A stretch of DNA of 64,000 nucleotides from Prochlorococcus sp. AG-347-J22 (GTDB lineage: Bacteria > Cyanobacteriota > Cyanobacteriia > PCC-6307 > Cyanobiaceae), in NCBI GenBank assembly GCA_003279005.1, contig QCBY01000006.1, positions 1-64,000 of the forward strand. The letters run 5' to 3'. Positions 18,999 to 30,348 of this stretch are shown in pieces; the first letter of the stretch is position 1; every line of letters begins with the position of its first letter. The position numbers and the translations under genes were made by a program. The notes beneath the pieces are model-generated. The model saw only the letters and a program-made list of their open reading frames with translations. It searched no databases and was not told where the DNA came from.

Positions 18999-20678
18999 TT
19001 ATGCGGCTGCTCTATCTATAAGTGTCGAAGCATAAGTATTTGCCTCACTAAAACCACCACCTATTAATTCAATTAACTCATTTTGTCTTTCTGTTTTTGT
19101 AGTTAATTTCGAAATAGAAGTAAATGTTGTCCCGCTAATTACACTTTTCTTTACTTTAAAATGACTATTTCCATTTGCGGCTAAAAAAGGCTGATGAGTA
19201 ATACACAAAACCTGCTTTTCTTGAGCAATTTCCTTTATTAAGTCGACAAGAGCATGCAAGGATTTTCCACTCAAACCAGTGTCAATTTCATCTAAGAAAA
19301 AAGTGTTAGGTTTTTTAGAAATGCTAGATTTTATTGCTAATAAAAATCTAGACATTTCTCCGCCTGAGATGACTTTGGTAAGTGGTGCCAACTTTTGATC
19401 AGGGTTTGCAGAAAACAAAAATTCTATATTGTCCTGACCTTCTGCTGAAGGAGCAACTTTTCTAAAATCAACAAGAAAATTTGCATTTTCTAAACCTAAA
19501 TTTTGTAAAATATAATTCACTTTTTCTTGAAGCTGTCTTGCTGATCGCCTTCTGTGAAAAGACTGAAGTTCGAAGAGAGAATCTAGATTATTTTGCAAAA
19601 TATTAATTTGATAATCTAACTTTTTAATCTCCTCCTCGTACGAATTTTTATCCATAAATGTTTTTAATTCATCTCTTTTGACAATCAATTGTGGTAGTTC
19701 TAGAGAAAATGTTCGTTCTAAATTTTGCAAATAAAATAATCTTTTTTGAATTTCTTCCAAAAAAGTATCTTCATTCTCGACATGTTCTAAATACTCTGTT
19801 AAAGCATAGATTAAATTTTCCACATCATTTTGAACATTAATTAATTTATCATTAAAATTCTTAATTGTTGAATCAAATTGGGCAACTTTACTTAATTGTT
19901 TAATTGATTCAGAAATTAAAGAACTAACTGATGGAGACTCGTTTTTATAGTTATTTAAATTTTCAAATGCTAGTTGTAGAGATTTACTTATTTCAAAATT
20001 ATTAGAAAGTCTGAATTCTTTAGATTTTAGTTCTTCAATTTCGTCACATGAATTTAAATTAGCTTCCTCCAACATTTTATGCATTTCTTTAATTGCAAAA
20101 TTATCCTCTTCTTTTTTTTTTAATAATTGCAGCTTATTTTCCCTTGTTTTTTTTATCATCTGAAATTCTTGCCATATAGTTTTAATCTGAATATTTATTT
20201 TCTTTAATTCTTTATGTCCAAGCTCATCTATTATTAATCTTCTATATGCAGGATCATCGTATAAAAAACTATCAGATTGACCAGCAAAATCTATTAGTAA
20301 TAATCCTAAATCTTGTAAATGCTTTTTGCTTATAGATAATTCATTTATAGTAAACTTAGATATTATTTTATTATTTTTTTTAAAGGACTTTCGTCTTATA
20401 AGAATTGCACCTGATATTTTTTGAAACCCATTTTTCAAAAGCCATTCAGCCACTTTAAGCGAATTAGAAAATTTCGCTTCAATTAAACATTCTGTTTTTC
20501 CTGGACGAATTAAGTGTTTTAAAGGTATATTGGTTCCGCCGAATAAAACGTTAAGAGAGTCAAGAATCAGAGATTTTCCTGAACCTGAATCTCCGGTAAA
20601 GATATTCAAACCTTTTTCGAAATTAATTTCTATAATCTCTATTAAGGCTATATTTTTTAAATTTAATTGTATTAACAT
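18999..20678 (-). CDS. recN: DNA repair protein RecN
   Basis: A 559-residue SMC-like ATPase that acts at double-strand breaks with RecA. The Walker A motif GDSGSGKS is at 29-36. A long Glu/Lys/Leu-rich coiled coil spans about 160-350. The ABC signature VISGGEMSRFLLAIKS and Walker B FFLDEIDTGLSG are near 450-475, followed by the His switch ITHQPFLAA. The length is close to the family's 550-560. It sits upstream of uvrA on the same strand with a 53-base gap, so the two repair genes may form one transcript. It is divergent from the UbiB-like kinase gene. Confidence 0.95.
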   Translation of the reverse strand: MLIQLNLKNIALIEIIEINFEKGLNIFTGDSGSGKSLILDSLNVLFGGTNIPLKHLIRPGKTECLIEAKFSNSLKVAEWLLKNGFQKISGAILIRRKSFKKNNKIISKFTINELSISKKHLQDLGLLLIDFAGQSDSFLYDDPAYRRLIIDELGHKELKKINIQIKTIWQEFQMIKKTRENKLQLLKKKEEDNFAIKEMHKMLEEANLNSCDEIEELKSKEFRLSNNFEISKSLQLAFENLNNYKNESPSVSSLISESIKQLSKVAQFDSTIKNFNDKLINVQNDVENLIYALTEYLEHVENEDTFLEEIQKRLFYLQNLERTFSLELPQLIVKRDELKTFMDKNSYEEEIKKLDYQINILQNNLDSLFELQSFHRRRSARQLQEKVNYILQNLGLENANFLVDFRKVAPSAEGQDNIEFLFSANPDQKLAPLTKVISGGEMSRFLLAIKSSISKKPNTFFLDEIDTGLSGKSLHALVDLIKEIAQEKQVLCITHQPFLAANGNSHFKVKKSVISGTTFTSISKLTTKTERQNELIELIGGGFSEANTYASTLIDRAAA

Positions 20679-22605: not shown

Positions 22606-23178
22606 ATGAATTTTTCAAAAAATTTAATCTTAAAGATATTTTTAATATTTTCTATTAACCCATTTTTTATGACTACTCCTAAAGCTAAGGGAGCAGAAAA
22701 TATTAAAATAATATATAGTATATTTTCTCGAACAATTACTGTTGAATCTTTAAAAAAATTTGCCAATGATGGATATTCATCTAATAAATTAAAAAAAATT
22801 TTAAATGCCACTGGTACTCCACATAATAAAATTCAATCAGTGTTAAATAAGAATTTTGAAATTCCCATAACTATTGCAAGCAAACTAGTATATTCCGAAA
22901 TAGGAAATGTCTTTTTAACTAGACTTTCTTCCATAATTCACACTCCTAAAACAAATGATAAGAGGACTGGAATGTTAGCCTTGAGATCAAGTGTTGTTCA
23001 AGGGATCTATTTAGGAAATGGGAGTATAAACCTCATAAAATTTTTTGAAAGTTATCCAACTGAAACTGTTATTTTAAACGTAAACGCTTTGAGTAAAGTA
23101 ATGAATAAAGTAGAATCAATATCAGAATTATTAGATTTTTTCACTAACAAACCCTTAGAAAAAATAAAAGAAAATTAA
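22606..23178 (+). CDS. Exported protein with a stand-alone DUF1400 domain
   Basis: A 190-residue protein when started at ATG 22606. A TTG at 22582 lies inside the upstream gene and is less likely. The N-terminus has a signal peptide: basic start, hydrophobic FLIFSINPFFM, then a likely cleavage near KAKGAEN. The mature part, from IIYSIFSRTITVESLKKFA onward, resembles the DUF1400 domain that in many cyanobacterial proteins precedes an alpha/beta hydrolase domain. Here the hydrolase part is missing: there is no GxSxG serine motif and the protein ends after the first domain. It is therefore wrong to expect lipase activity from it alone. The position one base after the UbiB-like gene suggests a joint transcript. 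Confidence 0.65.
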   Translation: MNFSKNLILKIFLIFSINPFFMTTPKAKGAENIKIIYSIFSRTITVESLKKFANDGYSSNKLKKILNATGTPHNKIQSVLNKNFEIPITIASKLVYSEIGNVFLTRLSSIIHTPKTNDKRTGMLALRSSVVQGIYLGNGSINLIKFFESYPTETVILNVNALSKVMNKVESISELLDFFTNKPLEKIKEN

Positions 23179-23184
23179 ATAATT

Positions 23185-24288
23185 ATGTATTTATTAAAAA
23201 AAATTAAAAATAAATTGCAACTCAATTATAAGAAAAAAAAATGGCCGGGATTAATTAATGCATATAAACAACATTTGCCCGTATCTTCAAAAACTCCAAT
23301 TATATCTTTAAAAGAAGGCAATACTCCTCTAATTTTTAGCCAATCAATAAGTGATTTAATTGGAAACGATACGAAAGTTTATTTAAAATATGATGGTCTC
23401 AATCCTACTGGCTCTTTCAAAGATAGAGGAATGACAATGGCAATCAGTAAAGCAAAAGAGTTAGGTAGTAAAGCAGTAATTTGCGCTAGTACAGGAAACA
23501 CTTCTGCTGCCGCTGCTGCTTACGCTTCCAGAGGGGGGTTAAAATCTTACGTTTTAATTCCTGACGGATATGTAGCCCAAGGTAAACTTGCTCAAGCTTT
23601 AATTTATGGAGCAGAAATAATTTCTATTAAAGGAAATTTTGATAAAGCTTTGGAAATTGTTAGAGATTTATCTGAAAAATATCCAATAACTCTTGTAAAC
23701 TCCGTAAATCCTTACCGCATACAAGGTCAAAAAACTGCCGCTTTTGAAATTGTTGATGATTTAGGTTTTGCGCCTGATTGGCTTTGTATACCAATGGGAA
23801 ATGCAGGTAACATTTCTGCATATTGGTTAGGTTTCAAAGAATACTCAAAAATAAAGAAAAATTTAAATTTACCAATCATGATGGGTTTTCAAGCTGCAGG
23901 ATCTGCACCTTTAGTTAAAAATATAATAGTTAAAGATCCTGAAACTATTGCAACTGCAATCAGAATTGGAAACCCGGTTAATAGAGATAAAGCGAAAGTA
24001 GTAAGGAAAGAAAGTAAAGGTGATTTTCAATCTGTCACGGACGAAGATATTATTGAAGCTTATAAGAAACTTGCAAAAGAAGGTATATTTTGTGAACCAG
24101 CAAGCGCAGCATCAGTAGCCGGGCTAATTAAAAATAAAAACAGAATTAAGAAAAGATCAAATATAGTTTGTGTTTTAACTGGCAATGGATTAAAAGATCC
24201 AGATTGCGCTATTAAAAATAACGATGCTGTTTTCCAAAATAATATAGAGCCTTCATTAAGAGAAATAACAAAAATTTTGGGATACTAA
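23185..24288 (+). CDS. thrC: Threonine synthase
   Basis: A PLP enzyme that converts O-phosphohomoserine to threonine. The 367-residue length is that of the class I cyanobacterial, plant-like type. The Schiff-base Lys is in [14 protein letters not shown] (near 66). The phosphate-binding loop is [14 protein letters not shown] (near 98). [13 protein letters not shown] (near 205) and [11 protein letters not shown]-like [11 protein letters not shown] (near 330) complete the PLP pocket. It begins six bases after the DUF1400 gene and closes the cluster before the replication origin. There are no internal breaks. Confidence 0.95.
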
Positions 24289-24633
24289 CTTTACAAAAAA
24301 TTTAATTAACTGTGGAAATACTTGAAAAACAATCAAAATTCTGTTGATTAGTTATTAAAAATAAAATTAGAATGTGAATAAATCTTAAAAGAAATTATTT
24401 ATATCATAAAATATTCACAAAATACAAAATTTTTCCACTAAACATTAATCTTTAAATTACAAACATACCGGATAATTTTGGCTTTTTTCCACAATTTCCA
24501 CAACAACTATTACTACTATATAAATTACTAAATAAGAAATATATTATAGAAATTAGAGGATTAAAAAGAAAAAATATTTAATTGCAATAATTAAGAAAAT
24601 AGACCTAATATATAAATAAAGTTACGTATTCAG
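24289..24633. other. Probable chromosomal replication origin (oriC) with a DnaA-box cluster
   Basis: A 345-base gene-free stretch between thrC and dnaN. It contains six 9-mers equal to, or one base from, the DnaA boxes TTTTCCACA / TTATNCACA. Plus strand: 24411-24419 (ATATTCACA), 24431-24439 (TTTTCCACT), 24485-24493 (TTTTCCACA, exact) and 24494-24502 (ATTTCCACA, directly joined to the previous one). Minus strand: 24311-24319 (reads ATTTCCACA) and 24373-24381 (reads TTATTCACA, exact). An A+T-only-like stretch at about 24515-24610 next to the boxes could be the unwinding element. Cyanobacterial origins are commonly placed beside dnaN, with dnaA elsewhere, and no dnaA is seen in this window. Confidence 0.8.
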
Positions 24634-25788
24634 ATGGAGATTGTTTGTAATCAAAATGAATTTAATTATGCTATTCAATTAGTTAGTAAGGCAGTATCTT
24701 CAAGGCCTACTCATCCAATTCTTGCAAATATACTTTTAACAGCTGACCAAGGAACTAACAAAATTAGTTTGACTGGATTTGATTTGAATTTAGGAATACA
24801 AACCTCATTTGATGCTACTGTTACAAAAAGTGGAGCAATTACTATCCCTTCAAAACTTCTATCTGAAATAGTAAATAAACTTCCAAGTGAAACCCCTGTT
24901 TTACTTAATTTTGATGATAGATCAGATAATATTTTAATTAAAAGTGATAAAGGATCGTTTAATTTAAAAGGAATTCCATCAGAAGATTATCCTAATTTGC
25001 CATTTGTTGAAAGTGGTAATTCCTTAAGTATTGATCCAAGCTCTTTTTTAAAAGCTTTAAAATTAACGATCTTTTCCAGCAGTAATGATGATTCCAAGCA
25101 ATTGTTGACTGGAGTGAATTTTAAATTTAATTTGAAATGTTTGGAGTCAGCTGCAACTGATGGACATAGATTAGCTGTTGTTTCAGTTGATAATAAGGAA
25201 AATTTTGAAGAAAATTTATCTGATGAAGAAAATTTATCAGTCACTATTCCAACAAAATCTTTAAGGGAAATTGAAAAACTAGTTAGTTTGAGTACTTCTG
25301 AAAATTCAATTAAACTTTTTTATGATAAAGGTCAATTAGTATTTATTTCTTCTAATCACATAATTACAACTAGAACTTTAGAAGGTTCTTATCCAAATTA
25401 TTCTCAATTAATTCCAGATACTTTTTCAAAACTTTTTACATTTAATACAAAGAGATTAATTGAAGCATTAGAGAGAATAGCTGTATTAGCAGACCAACAA
25501 AGTAGTGTTGTTAAGATTAAGTTAGGAGAAAAAAATTTAGCTTTAGTAAGCGCTGATGCTCAAGATATTGGCAACGCTAATGAACTTGTACCTGTATCCT
25601 ATGATTTTGATCATTTTGATATAGCCTTTAACGTAAGGTATCTCTTAGAGGGTTTAAAAGTTATTTCAAGTCAAAATGTTATTTTTAAATGTAATCTTCC
25701 TACTACGCCAGCCGTTTTAGTGCCAGAAGATAATATTAATTCTCTTACTTATACTTACTTAGTTATGCCCGTTCAAGTTCGCTCTTAA
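24634..25788 (+). CDS. dnaN: DNA polymerase III beta subunit (sliding clamp)
   Basis: A 384-residue clamp protein, slightly longer than the 366 of E. coli because of an acidic insert near residues 185-205 (NKENFEENLSDEENLS). It forms a dimeric ring that tethers the replicase to DNA. Family marks: the N-terminal MEIVCNQNEFNYAIQLVSKA, SRPTHPILANILL, SATDGHRLAVV-like AATDGHRLAVVSV in domain 2, and the C-terminal LVMPVQVRS, which lies by the peptide-binding pocket. It starts at the right edge of the probable origin. The following gene begins one base after its stop. Confidence 0.97.
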   Translation: MEIVCNQNEFNYAIQLVSKAVSSRPTHPILANILLTADQGTNKISLTGFDLNLGIQTSFDATVTKSGAITIPSKLLSEIVNKLPSETPVLLNFDDRSDNILIKSDKGSFNLKGIPSEDYPNLPFVESGNSLSIDPSSFLKALKLTIFSSSNDDSKQLLTGVNFKFNLKCLESAATDGHRLAVVSVDNKENFEENLSDEENLSVTIPTKSLREIEKLVSLSTSENSIKLFYDKGQLVFISSNHIITTRTLEGSYPNYSQLIPDTFSKLFTFNTKRLIEALERIAVLADQQSSVVKIKLGEKNLALVSADAQDIGNANELVPVSYDFDHFDIAFNVRYLLEGLKVISSQNVIFKCNLPTTPAVLVPEDNINSLTYTYLVMPVQVRS

Positions 25789-25789
25789 T

Positions 25790-26497
25790 TTGAAACTACC
25801 AAAAGAATTTTTATTAAGTGATTTATTAAGCCATAGCGTAAAAGGTAATGCGAGTCTGAATTATGGTACAGGTGAAAATGTATGGATGCACCCGCCTGTA
25901 CATAGGATTTTAGGATGGTATTCTAGACCTTCAAATTTCGATTTAAAAAGAAACGTATGGAAATTAAACCAAATTAATCAAATTATAGAAAACGATATTT
26001 TTGTAAAAGGAAATCCTGCTATTTCAGATTTAGCAACCTTAAATAGATTTCCTAACTTAATAGAGGCTAATCTAATAAACTCTAATGGTTCAAAGATTGG
26101 AGTAATAGCAGATTTTTTATTTGAAATGAAAACCGGAAATATAAAATTTTATTTAATTTCTCGTTCTAATCCAAGAATTCCAGGTTCAAGTCGATGGAAA
26201 TTAAATATTGAAGATATTATTGATCAGCAACCTGGTTTAGTTTTTTGTTCATTGTTATCTTTAGAAGATTTGTCATTAATTAAGTCAAGTCTCAAAAACA
26301 CGATTTTTAAAAAAGGAAAAAAAATTATAAATCGCTTTGATGATATGAAAAATACTGCAGCAAATAGATTAGAGGACTGGCTCGAAGAAGATGAAGATAT
26401 AAACAAAAATTCAGAATTTAGACAAAATAGTTTTTATAATGAAAATCAGAGTGATAGAACTTTCAGAAATAAAAAAGAAAATGATCCTTGGATTTGA
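25790..26497 (+). CDS. Cyanobacterial protein with PRC-barrel-like segment
   Basis: A 235-residue protein starting at TTG one base after dnaN. I recognise the type, conserved next to dnaN in picocyanobacteria, but not a proven function. Residues about 95-165 (NGSKIGVIADFLFEMKTG, then KFYLISRSNPRI and VFCSLLSLEDL) look like a PRC-barrel fold, as found in RimM and photosynthetic reaction-centre H subunits. The N-terminal half has conserved aromatic residues (VWMHPPVHRILGWYSRP). The C-terminal third is very acidic and polar and probably disordered. There are no membrane segments or signal peptide. It lies between dnaN and purL, 3 bases before the latter, so all three may share one transcript. 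Confidence 0.7.
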   Translation: MKLPKEFLLSDLLSHSVKGNASLNYGTGENVWMHPPVHRILGWYSRPSNFDLKRNVWKLNQINQIIENDIFVKGNPAISDLATLNRFPNLIEANLINSNGSKIGVIADFLFEMKTGNIKFYLISRSNPRIPGSSRWKLNIEDIIDQQPGLVFCSLLSLEDLSLIKSSLKNTIFKKGKKIINRFDDMKNTAANRLEDWLEEDEDINKNSEFRQNSFYNENQSDRTFRNKKENDPWI

Positions 26498-28887: not shown

Positions 28888-30348
28888 ATGTGTGGAATTG
28901 TAGGAATTGTCTCCTCTGATGATGTGAATCAACAAATATACGACAGTCTTTTGTTGCTTCAGCATCGAGGACAAGATTCCACGGGTATCGCTACAATGGA
29001 AGATACTATTTTTCATTTACATAAAGCTAAAGGTCATGTAAACACTGCTTATAGAACAAGAGATATGAGGAATTTAATAGGTAAGGTTGGGTTAGGACAC
29101 GTCAGATATGCTACAAAAGGTTCTGCAGACAGTGTTGAAGAAGCGCAACCATTTTATGTGAACGCACCTTATGGAATTGTTTTAATTCATAATGGAAATC
29201 TTACTAATACCAGAGATCTAGAAAAACAATTATTTAACGTAGATAAACGTCACACTAATTCTTCAAGTGATACAGAAATGTTATTAAATATATTTGCGAC
29301 TGAATTACAAGAACAAATTCATAGTAAAGACTTACAACCAGAAATCATTTTTAATGCAGTGAAAAACCTACATAAAAGAATTCAAGGGTCATATGCTTCG
29401 ATTGCGCTTATTTCTGGTCATGGTTTACTAGCCTTTAGAGATCCTTTTGGTATAAGACCTTTAGTGATAGGAAAAAGAACTTCTTCTGATACTCAAAAAG
29501 AAGAGTGGATGGTGGCAAGTGAATCATTAGTATTAGAGAATAATGATTATACAGTTGTTAGAGATGTCGACCCTGGTGAGGCAATTTTTATTACTCATAA
29601 CGGCGAATTCTATTCAAAGCAATGTTCAGAAAATCCAAGTCTATTTCCTTGTGCATTTGAATATGTTTATTTAGCCAGACCAGATTCAGTGATGAATGGA
29701 ATCTCAGTTTACAAAGCTCGCTTAAAAATGGGTGATTATTTAGCAGAAACAATTAAGCAAACAATAAACTCTGGGGATGTTGATGTCGTAATGCCTATTC
29801 CTGATTCTTCTCGTCCTGCGGCAATGCAAGTAGCAAGGCAATTGGGTATAGAGTACAGAGAAGGATTTTTTAAAAACAGATATGTTGGCAGAACTTTTAT
29901 AATGCCTGGACATCAAAAACGCAAACAATCCGTAAGGCAAAAGTTAAATGCTATGAGTACGGAGTTTAAAAACAAAAATGTATTAATAGTTGATGATTCT
30001 ATAGTTAGAGGTACAACTTCAAAACAAATAGTCCAAATGGCAAAAGATGCAGGGGCAAATAAGGTTTTTTTTACATCAGCAGCACCCCCTGTAAGATTTC
30101 CTCATGTGTATGGAATTAATATGCCTAATAGGGATGAATTAATAGCCCATAATAGAACAATTCCTCAAATAGCAGAAAAACTCGAAATTGATAATTTGGT
30201 ATATCAAAGTGTTGATGATTTGAGGAAATCTATTATTATCGATTCTCCAGTAAAAGATTTAGAGATGAGTTGTTTTACAGGATCTTACGTAACAGGAACA
30301 GTAAATCAAGAGTATTTAAAATGGGTTGAAAATGAATATAAATCTTAA
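28888..30348 (+). CDS. purF: Amidophosphoribosyltransferase (glutamine PRPP amidotransferase)
   Basis: The committed step of purine synthesis, making 5-phosphoribosylamine from PRPP and glutamine. The N-terminus [12 protein letters not shown] places the Ntn glutaminase Cys at position 2 with no propeptide. [12 protein letters not shown] follows. The C-terminal phosphoribosyltransferase part has the PRPP loop [14 protein letters not shown]. The length of 486 fits. Cys residues in the C-terminal half (for example [12 protein letters not shown]) could belong to the Fe-S type of the enzyme, which is typical when the propeptide exists, so this is uncertain. The stop overlaps the gyrA-like stop in four bases (TTAA, 30345-30348). 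Confidence 0.96.

Follow-up and report, generated by a model that had tools for sequence, protein, structure and literature searches.

A very probable chromosomal origin beside dnaN in a high-light-type Prochlorococcus, with the layout of a basal unwinding system

In B. subtilis, the basal unwinding system (BUS) of the chromosomal origin, oriC, is composed of DnaA boxes 6/7 and DnaA-trios (PMC8287927, PMC10721633, PMC6669920). The BUS rule given in PMC8287927 calls for at least three trios of the form 3'-NAN-5' and, no farther than 16 bp from them, a DnaA-box with no more than two mismatches; a second box is optional and may carry up to four mismatches. According to DoriC/Ori-Finder, cyanobacterial oriC usually adjoins dnaN and has the TTTTCCACA box (PMC6323995, PMC4674748). 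The oriC of S. elongatus was found near dnaN by experiment (PMC7198777), and the DnaA of this organism unwinds its own BUS in vitro, needing both boxes and trios to do so (PMC8287927). The available parts of the DoriC/Ori-Finder accounts give no trio geometry or phased reverse sites for Prochlorococcus. Nothing joining Prochlorococcus with DnaA-trios was found in the literature available to us; the origins treated here may be listed in supplementary Table S2 of PMC8287927.

The locus described here lies in a 64-kb stretch of DNA, referred to as the window, which comprises bases 1 to 64000 of contig C6 of a Prochlorococcus draft genome (36 contigs, 1.41 Mb, 86% complete). It occupies the intergenic gap that separates dnaN from a threonine-synthase-like gene (24289-24633, no strand assigned), and it is very probably the chromosomal origin of a high-light-type Prochlorococcus, opening by a BUS. 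The origin itself is an ordinary, fresh instance of an already known type; we report its anatomy, conservation, motif uniqueness, skew, and low stability as observed for this origin. A preliminary description made from the letters of the window had proposed a replication origin beside dnaN, and this proposal is supported by a box layout that is kept in 79 genus loci and by a strand skew that turns here. The same description had placed dnaA outside the window. Indeed, the only Bac_DnaA match of the draft is on contig C4 (G000:C4:80793-82184, equal to L001:964-2355; minus strand), and dnaA thus lies on another contig, unlike in B. subtilis.

The gap before dnaN and its DnaA boxes

The gap measures 345 bp and has 18.8% GC. 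It is bordered by the threonine-synthase-like gene (23185-24288, plus strand), named from sequence reading alone, and by dnaN, the sliding clamp gene (24634-25788, plus strand), named from sequence reading and position. Of 182 named DnaN relatives, the best 80 comprise 78 labeled Prochlorococcus and 2 labeled uncultured Synechococcaceae. A homologue of the threonine-synthase-like gene adjoins dnaN in 78 of 81 genus loci, 77 of them with more than 700 bp upstream. Across 79 genus loci (these 78 and the window), this gene is the neighbor and the gap length is 331 to 357 bp. Rfam gave 0 matches within 23000-26000, and a promoter scan of 24200-24700 gave 2 sites, compared with 4.4 in shuffles. A weak candidate dnaN promoter, TTGCAA and TAATAT separated by 18 nt (24582-24611), was spotted by eye and is unlisted by the scan; other Prochlorococcus clades have a different sequence at this place.

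Six DnaA-box-like sites, two exact and four with one mismatch, had been noted before. Exactly six sites in 24289-24633 match TTWTNCACA with no more than one mismatch, and they span 192 bp; the exact ones are at 24373-24381 (minus strand) and 24485-24493 (plus strand). The pair described as fused head to tail (24485-24502) indeed consists of two 9-mers with a gap of 0, namely, the exact upstream box TTTTCCACA at 24485-24493 and the abutting downstream box ATTTCCACA at 24494-24502, both on the plus strand. The first of three phased reverse sites, the box ATTTCCACA at 24311-24319 (minus strand), is at -174 from the fused boxes. Its mean column conservation is 0.975, and the reverse slot at -172 to -175 (once -180) is filled in 79 of 79 genus loci. 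It is followed by a degenerate, conserved reverse site, TAATCAACA, at 24342-24350 (minus strand, -143; mean column conservation, 0.928), which the preliminary description had missed, and by the exact box TTATTCACA at 24373-24381 (minus strand, -112). The plus strand carries a weak DnaA-like site, ATATTCACA, at 24411-24419 (-74), with a conservation of 0.85 measured one base off, over 24412-24420, and the box TTTTCCACT at 24431-24439 (-54); the plus-strand bin from -60 to -51 is filled 72 times in the 79 genus loci.

The reverse sites (24311-24381) lie 30 to 31 bp apart, or about three helical turns, at a fixed distance from the fused boxes. Their spacings vary by no more than 1 to 2 bases in nearly all of the 79 genus loci; all three reverse slots are filled in 68 loci, and two are filled in the remaining 11. 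A comparison of box order among other Prochlorococcus strains had been recommended, and order, strand, and spacing proved to be kept in the 79 loci. The region upstream of the fused pair averages 2.85 boxes per locus, compared with 0.11 in shuffles. Mean column conservation is 0.88 to 0.98 for the five main boxes and 0.73 for the non-element remainder.

When the loose consensus TTWTNCACA was used, Markov copies of the region averaged 1.5 sites, and 31 of 5000 copies had at least six. By this consensus, a count of six stands out only moderately from chance; another 345-bp stretch of the window, starting near 19492, has eight. The strict consensus TTWTCCACA yields 5 sites, compared with a mean of 0.23, and at least five were reached in 0 of 5000 Markov copies. 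By the strict consensus, the DnaA-box cluster exceeds chance, as is expected of an oriC. The position beside dnaN and the TTTTCCACA boxes are common to this origin and that of S. elongatus. The latter has eleven box repeats, of which seven are TTTTCCACA (PMC4674748), whereas most Prochlorococcus boxes have drifted from this sequence.

The putative BUS module and the probable unwinding element

Four DnaA-trios, reading CTATTACTACTA, are located 4 nt past the fused boxes and had been missed by the preliminary description. The trios CTA TTA CTA CTA (24507-24518, plus strand; other strand, 3'-GAT AAT GAT GAT-5') have a middle A in all four, and the first base of trio 2 differs by a G-to-A change. 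The spacer ahead of them (24503-24506, plus strand) is constant in length, at 4 nt, and free in sequence. With respect to the BUS rule, the two boxes differ from TTTTCCACA at 0 and 1 positions, no gap lies between them, the spacer is 4 nt, and the four trios are consecutive. The 13 nt between the end of the exact box and the trios correspond to the commonest spacer of PMC8287927. As judged from sequence, tandem boxes, spacer, and trios have the known layout of a basal unwinding system. The earlier idea that the joined boxes could favor cooperative DnaA binding can be refined accordingly, with the pair serving as the putative BUS platform ahead of the DnaA-trios. The 64-kb window has two good boxes with trios at this one place, and none of 5000 Markov copies has such a combination.

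Like the BUS of B. subtilis, the module has co-oriented tandem boxes, a short spacer, and trios in the same strand sense, and the DnaA has hydrophobic ISM residues. Unlike in B. subtilis, the boxes are exactly abutting, and there are four trios here, compared with the six engaged in the B. subtilis structure.

The trios have a mean column conservation of 0.983, the highest among the listed elements, and the spacer has one of 0.706. Fitch changes per base amount to about 0.6 for the trios, 0.7 to 2.8 for the boxes, 5 to 11 for the spacer, and 3.7 to 10.7 for three non-element stretches. Abutment of the boxes was counted in 88 upstream regions from the closest relatives, window included, with one region (L079, 28 bp upstream) excluded. 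The boxes abut in 86 of these 87 loci, and those of L054 overlap by one base. A script found 79 of the 87 loci, and the other 8 were read by eye; L054 was misplaced by another script and likewise read by eye. The 4-nt spacer precedes the trio run across the 87 loci; the script reported spacer 4 in 74, and in the 5 scripted loci with another spacer, the trio run extends upstream or the first unit differs.

The exact BUS pattern searched was TTCCACANTTYCCACA followed by 1 to 5 nt and CTAYTACTA, written TTCCACANTTYCCACANN{0,4}CTAYTACTA. Of 200 genus genomes, 106 contain it, each a single time, and the reverse-read control gave 0 matches. All 106 matches are 133 to 149 bp ahead of dnaN on the same strand. 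The pattern is absent from 94 of the 200 genomes, and 49 of the 200 are also without a dnaN match; those loci without the exact pattern that were read show one- or two-base departures.

The AT-rich stretch that had been reported after the boxes was borne out, since 24507-24600 has 14% GC and the window has 31%. By nearest-neighbor energies, stability over 100 bp reaches its lowest value in the window at 24518-24618 (no strand assigned). This probable DNA unwinding element directly follows the trios, and such low stability is a property of oriC; when other segment sizes were used, the place ranked fifth at 50 bp and the region eighth at 200 bp. The proposed check by GC skew held only roughly: the GC minimum of the window is at 20501, and the cumulative keto skew (G+T minus A+C) has its minimum at 24896, within the start of dnaN. 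The T-A minimum is at 30342. The strand-composition switch of an oriC is therefore found on keto skew. In a relative, G015 (1,657,990 bp), the keto minimum is 1050 bp past the record start (20 kb either side examined). Its 20-kb samples are positive in 8 of 8 cases from 0 to 0.6 Mb, mixed from 0.66 to 0.85 Mb (3 samples), and negative in 10 of 10 cases from 0.91 to 1.66 Mb. GC skew alone is noisy, with a G015 minimum 3750 bp before the record start and several wrong-signed samples. Published metagenomes of Prochlorococcus ecotypes have a bidirectional coverage gradient with a single origin and a single terminus (PMC9589681); the available part of that account leaves the origin's gene unnamed.

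Trio variation and the initiator DnaA

Eighty regions from other genera (40 from the family and 40 from the rest of the class) gave 45 strict hits; gap 0 and spacer 4 were found in 41 of these. Since such hits occur in 41 of the 80 regions, the combination of fused boxes and a 4-nt spacer is common among cyanobacteria and is not peculiar to the window. In many of the other 35 regions, the module is present with drifted letters, as found by eye or by looser scans; eight of the 40 class regions have no module before dnaN (L157, L167, L169, L171, L177, L178, L184, and L187). In other members of the class, dnaN follows the start of the module by 150 to 660 bp. The same-class genomes G209 and G229 read TTTTCCACA TTTTCCACA GCCC, followed by CTATTACTA or CTACTACTA. 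Because of one high control score (27.6), the cut-off of a weight-matrix scan let through only 39 of the 80 regions from the family and class and 82 of the 87 from the genus. A loose one-box pattern occurs in 90 of 116 class genomes; read in reverse as a control, it gave 6 matches. Second matches resembling AT[TC]CCCAACCTCTACTACTA recur across many class genomes and, as judged only from reading them (Ile-Pro-Asn-Leu-Tyr-Tyr), probably reflect a conserved coding motif; because some loose matches are probably coding, 90 of 116 is an upper figure. A dnaA match is present in 114 of the 116 class genomes, and the two without one are 62% and 83% complete.

Two side observations concern the arrangement of the module in the class. 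G216, G242, and G290 (with L157, L187, and L184) have BUS-like sequence elsewhere and none before dnaN, and their sequences suggest that the origin may be separated from dnaN in these lineages. In L154, a second abutting box pair lies on the opposite strand, near base 467 with the sequence oriented towards dnaN and about 400 bp from the main one; the two pairs are possibly opposed loading platforms.

To read the trios of sister genera in the family, upstream regions were taken from 80 of 85 other-genus genomes in which dnaN was matched. Origins were placed in these family regions without use of trios 2 to 4, the frames of L217, L250, L140, and L147 were set by hand, and L145 and L231, where no site was located, were left out. 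In the 78 origins located, the middle base of trios 1 to 4 is A 235 times, C 74 times, G twice, and T once, counts that are not independent because the rows are related. The middle base of trio 1 is invariably A, and the first G is nearly always retained in the deviant trios (L112-L151, L213-L252). The 41 sister origins with at least 45% GC have a middle A 97 times, C 64 times, G twice, and T once, and C is the rarest base at frame-matched downstream positions (C 37, G 83, T 110, A 180). Deviant trios without a middle adenine have been suspected before (PMC8287927), and C, which bears an amino group like A, is a better substitute for A than G or T, both in vitro and in vivo (PMC10721633). The preference for C over G or T in sister genera is what the published amino-group rule predicts. 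In the GC-rich sister genera, which have an Asn/Arg pocket, this swap seems to have been made in nature: 74 of 77 deviants keep an amino base, and they might be taken as a natural replica of the published B. subtilis substitution experiment.

Within the genus, 24 loci with a DnaN identity of at least 86% form a clade that is monophyletic in the dnaN tree. Non-canonical trios (top strand not YTA) are found in 8 of the 24 clade origins, compared with 3 of 63 elsewhere (L030, L054, and L103). The clade deviants are ATA (L003, L011), CCA (L034), CAA (L036, L042, L043), and TAA (L049) in trio 3 and CAA in trio 1 of L044. A middle base other than A occurs in 6 of 24 clade loci, compared with 1 of 63 elsewhere (Fisher 0.0015). 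Parsimony gives a separate change for each deviant. The clade, with 34% of the tree length, takes 6 of 7 middle-base events (p 0.008) and 8 of 11 non-canonical events (p 0.010); this contrast was noticed post hoc, and the p-values of 0.001 to 0.01 are nominal. Total trio-column changes (clade 8, outside 7; background 159:312 in 24519-24560) depart less from background than the non-canonical counts do. The middle-base deviants inside the genus are T five times, G once, and C once, and the amino-group pattern therefore fails there. Seventeen extra origin regions, picked mostly for missing the exact pattern, are outside these counts; L333, L347, and L349 were too short, and L339 was read by eye. 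Two of the extras from outside the clade (L340 and L350) carry an ATA trio, in which the middle A is kept, and a middle base other than A was seen in none of those read. No origin was seen in L334, whose dnaN frame is 624 aa, perhaps from a chimeric contig.

Residues 6 to 456 of the window genome's DnaA align with the DnaA of entry 8btg. The entry listing says DnaA only, and we take it to be the B. subtilis protein from the residue numbers in PMC10721633. The equivalents of Glu183, Ile190, Ile193, Lys222, Glu223, Glu228, and Arg264 (B. subtilis numbering) are retained, and the GGxDHTTV stretch is present. In B. subtilis, Asn187 touches the amino group of the middle trio base and Arg202 touches O6 of the first G (PMC10721633). 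Unlike B. subtilis, the clade's DnaA has Ser/Lys at these positions; in the window's genome, Ser201 stands for Asn187 and Lys216 for Arg202. Asn196, the third-base contact, is replaced by Asp in 50 of 50 DnaAs aligned. Ser/Lys is carried by 21 of 21 fetched relatives with 94 to 97% identical DnaA and by G134 and G121 at 85%, and for this reason it is no sequencing slip. Asn/Arg is found in 55 of the 79 DnaAs compared, a set made of the best matches among those listed and 20 picked from GC-rich genera; two further DnaAs have Ser/Lys (G080) and Asn/Arg (G122). Since all 46 non-genus family members, down to 64% identity, have Asn/Arg, the Ser/Lys state at the trio-reading positions looks derived.

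A possible but uncertain reading, which we hold less likely true than false, is that the clade's DnaA trio pocket was rebuilt (Ser/Lys) and the origin loosened with it. This would be initiator-origin co-evolution, with a different single-strand recognition rule. The DnaA type of most clade genomes in this reading was assigned by clade rather than individually read. G134, a member of the second Ser/Lys group, has canonical trios, as do G162 and G107, whose DnaN identity is similar. The parts of the literature available to us gave no account of a Ser/Lys change in DnaA or of an A-to-C trio swap. In G094 (origin L052, dnaA L319), the DnaA is 95% identical to that of the window's genome and the DnaN just 82%, a mosaic that suggests recombination, with exchange of dnaA or dnaN between clades.

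Rival readings and proposed opening of the origin

The DnaA sites might mainly regulate dnaN, with DnaA as a transcription factor and replication beginning elsewhere. They directly precede dnaN, and the weak candidate promoter seen by eye lies between them and the gene. We consider this reading very unlikely, because the strand skew turns at dnaN, the BUS motif occurs once per genome, and the distance from module to dnaN is 150 to 660 bp elsewhere in the class. Furthermore, we know of no part played by fixed-geometry trios in promoter control. Chance assembly of DnaA-like 9-mers in AT-rich DNA is an extremely improbable account of the cluster. The stretch with eight loose-consensus sites shows that such 9-mers can gather elsewhere in the window, but neither five strict boxes nor the BUS arose in any of 5000 Markov copies, and the positional conservation in 79 loci refutes it.

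A relic origin, in a genome where, like in Synechocystis and Nostoc, replication begins at several sites independently of DnaA, has to be weighed as well. DnaA-independent multi-origin replication is found in other cyanobacteria, those with irregular skew, and some cyanobacteria retain dnaA yet replicate without it (PMC7198777), so that conserved sequence is no proof of use. The boxes and trios are under strong constraint, however, the skew of G015 is two-armed, and Prochlorococcus populations show single-origin coverage gradients (PMC9589681), which together make a relic very unlikely here.

For an origin that opens by a BUS, we infer binding, oligomer growth, unwinding, and helicase loading from B. 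subtilis and S. elongatus. DnaA would bind the abutting boxes (24485-24502) as double-stranded DNA, and from this platform its protomers would extend along one strand of the trios (24507-24518). By stretching this strand, they would open the duplex, and melting would then spread to the AT-rich stretch before dnaN and permit helicase loading. The upstream sites (three reverse sites phased at about 30 to 31 bp and the forward sites at -74 and -54) probably help to gather DnaA.

These data narrow the likely replication start in an abundant ocean phototroph to a 40-bp module. Its steady coordinates (two 9-mers, 4 nt, and four trios) are useful to growth-rate methods that need the position of the origin, and the natural variation around the module provides ready tests of single-stranded DNA recognition by DnaA.
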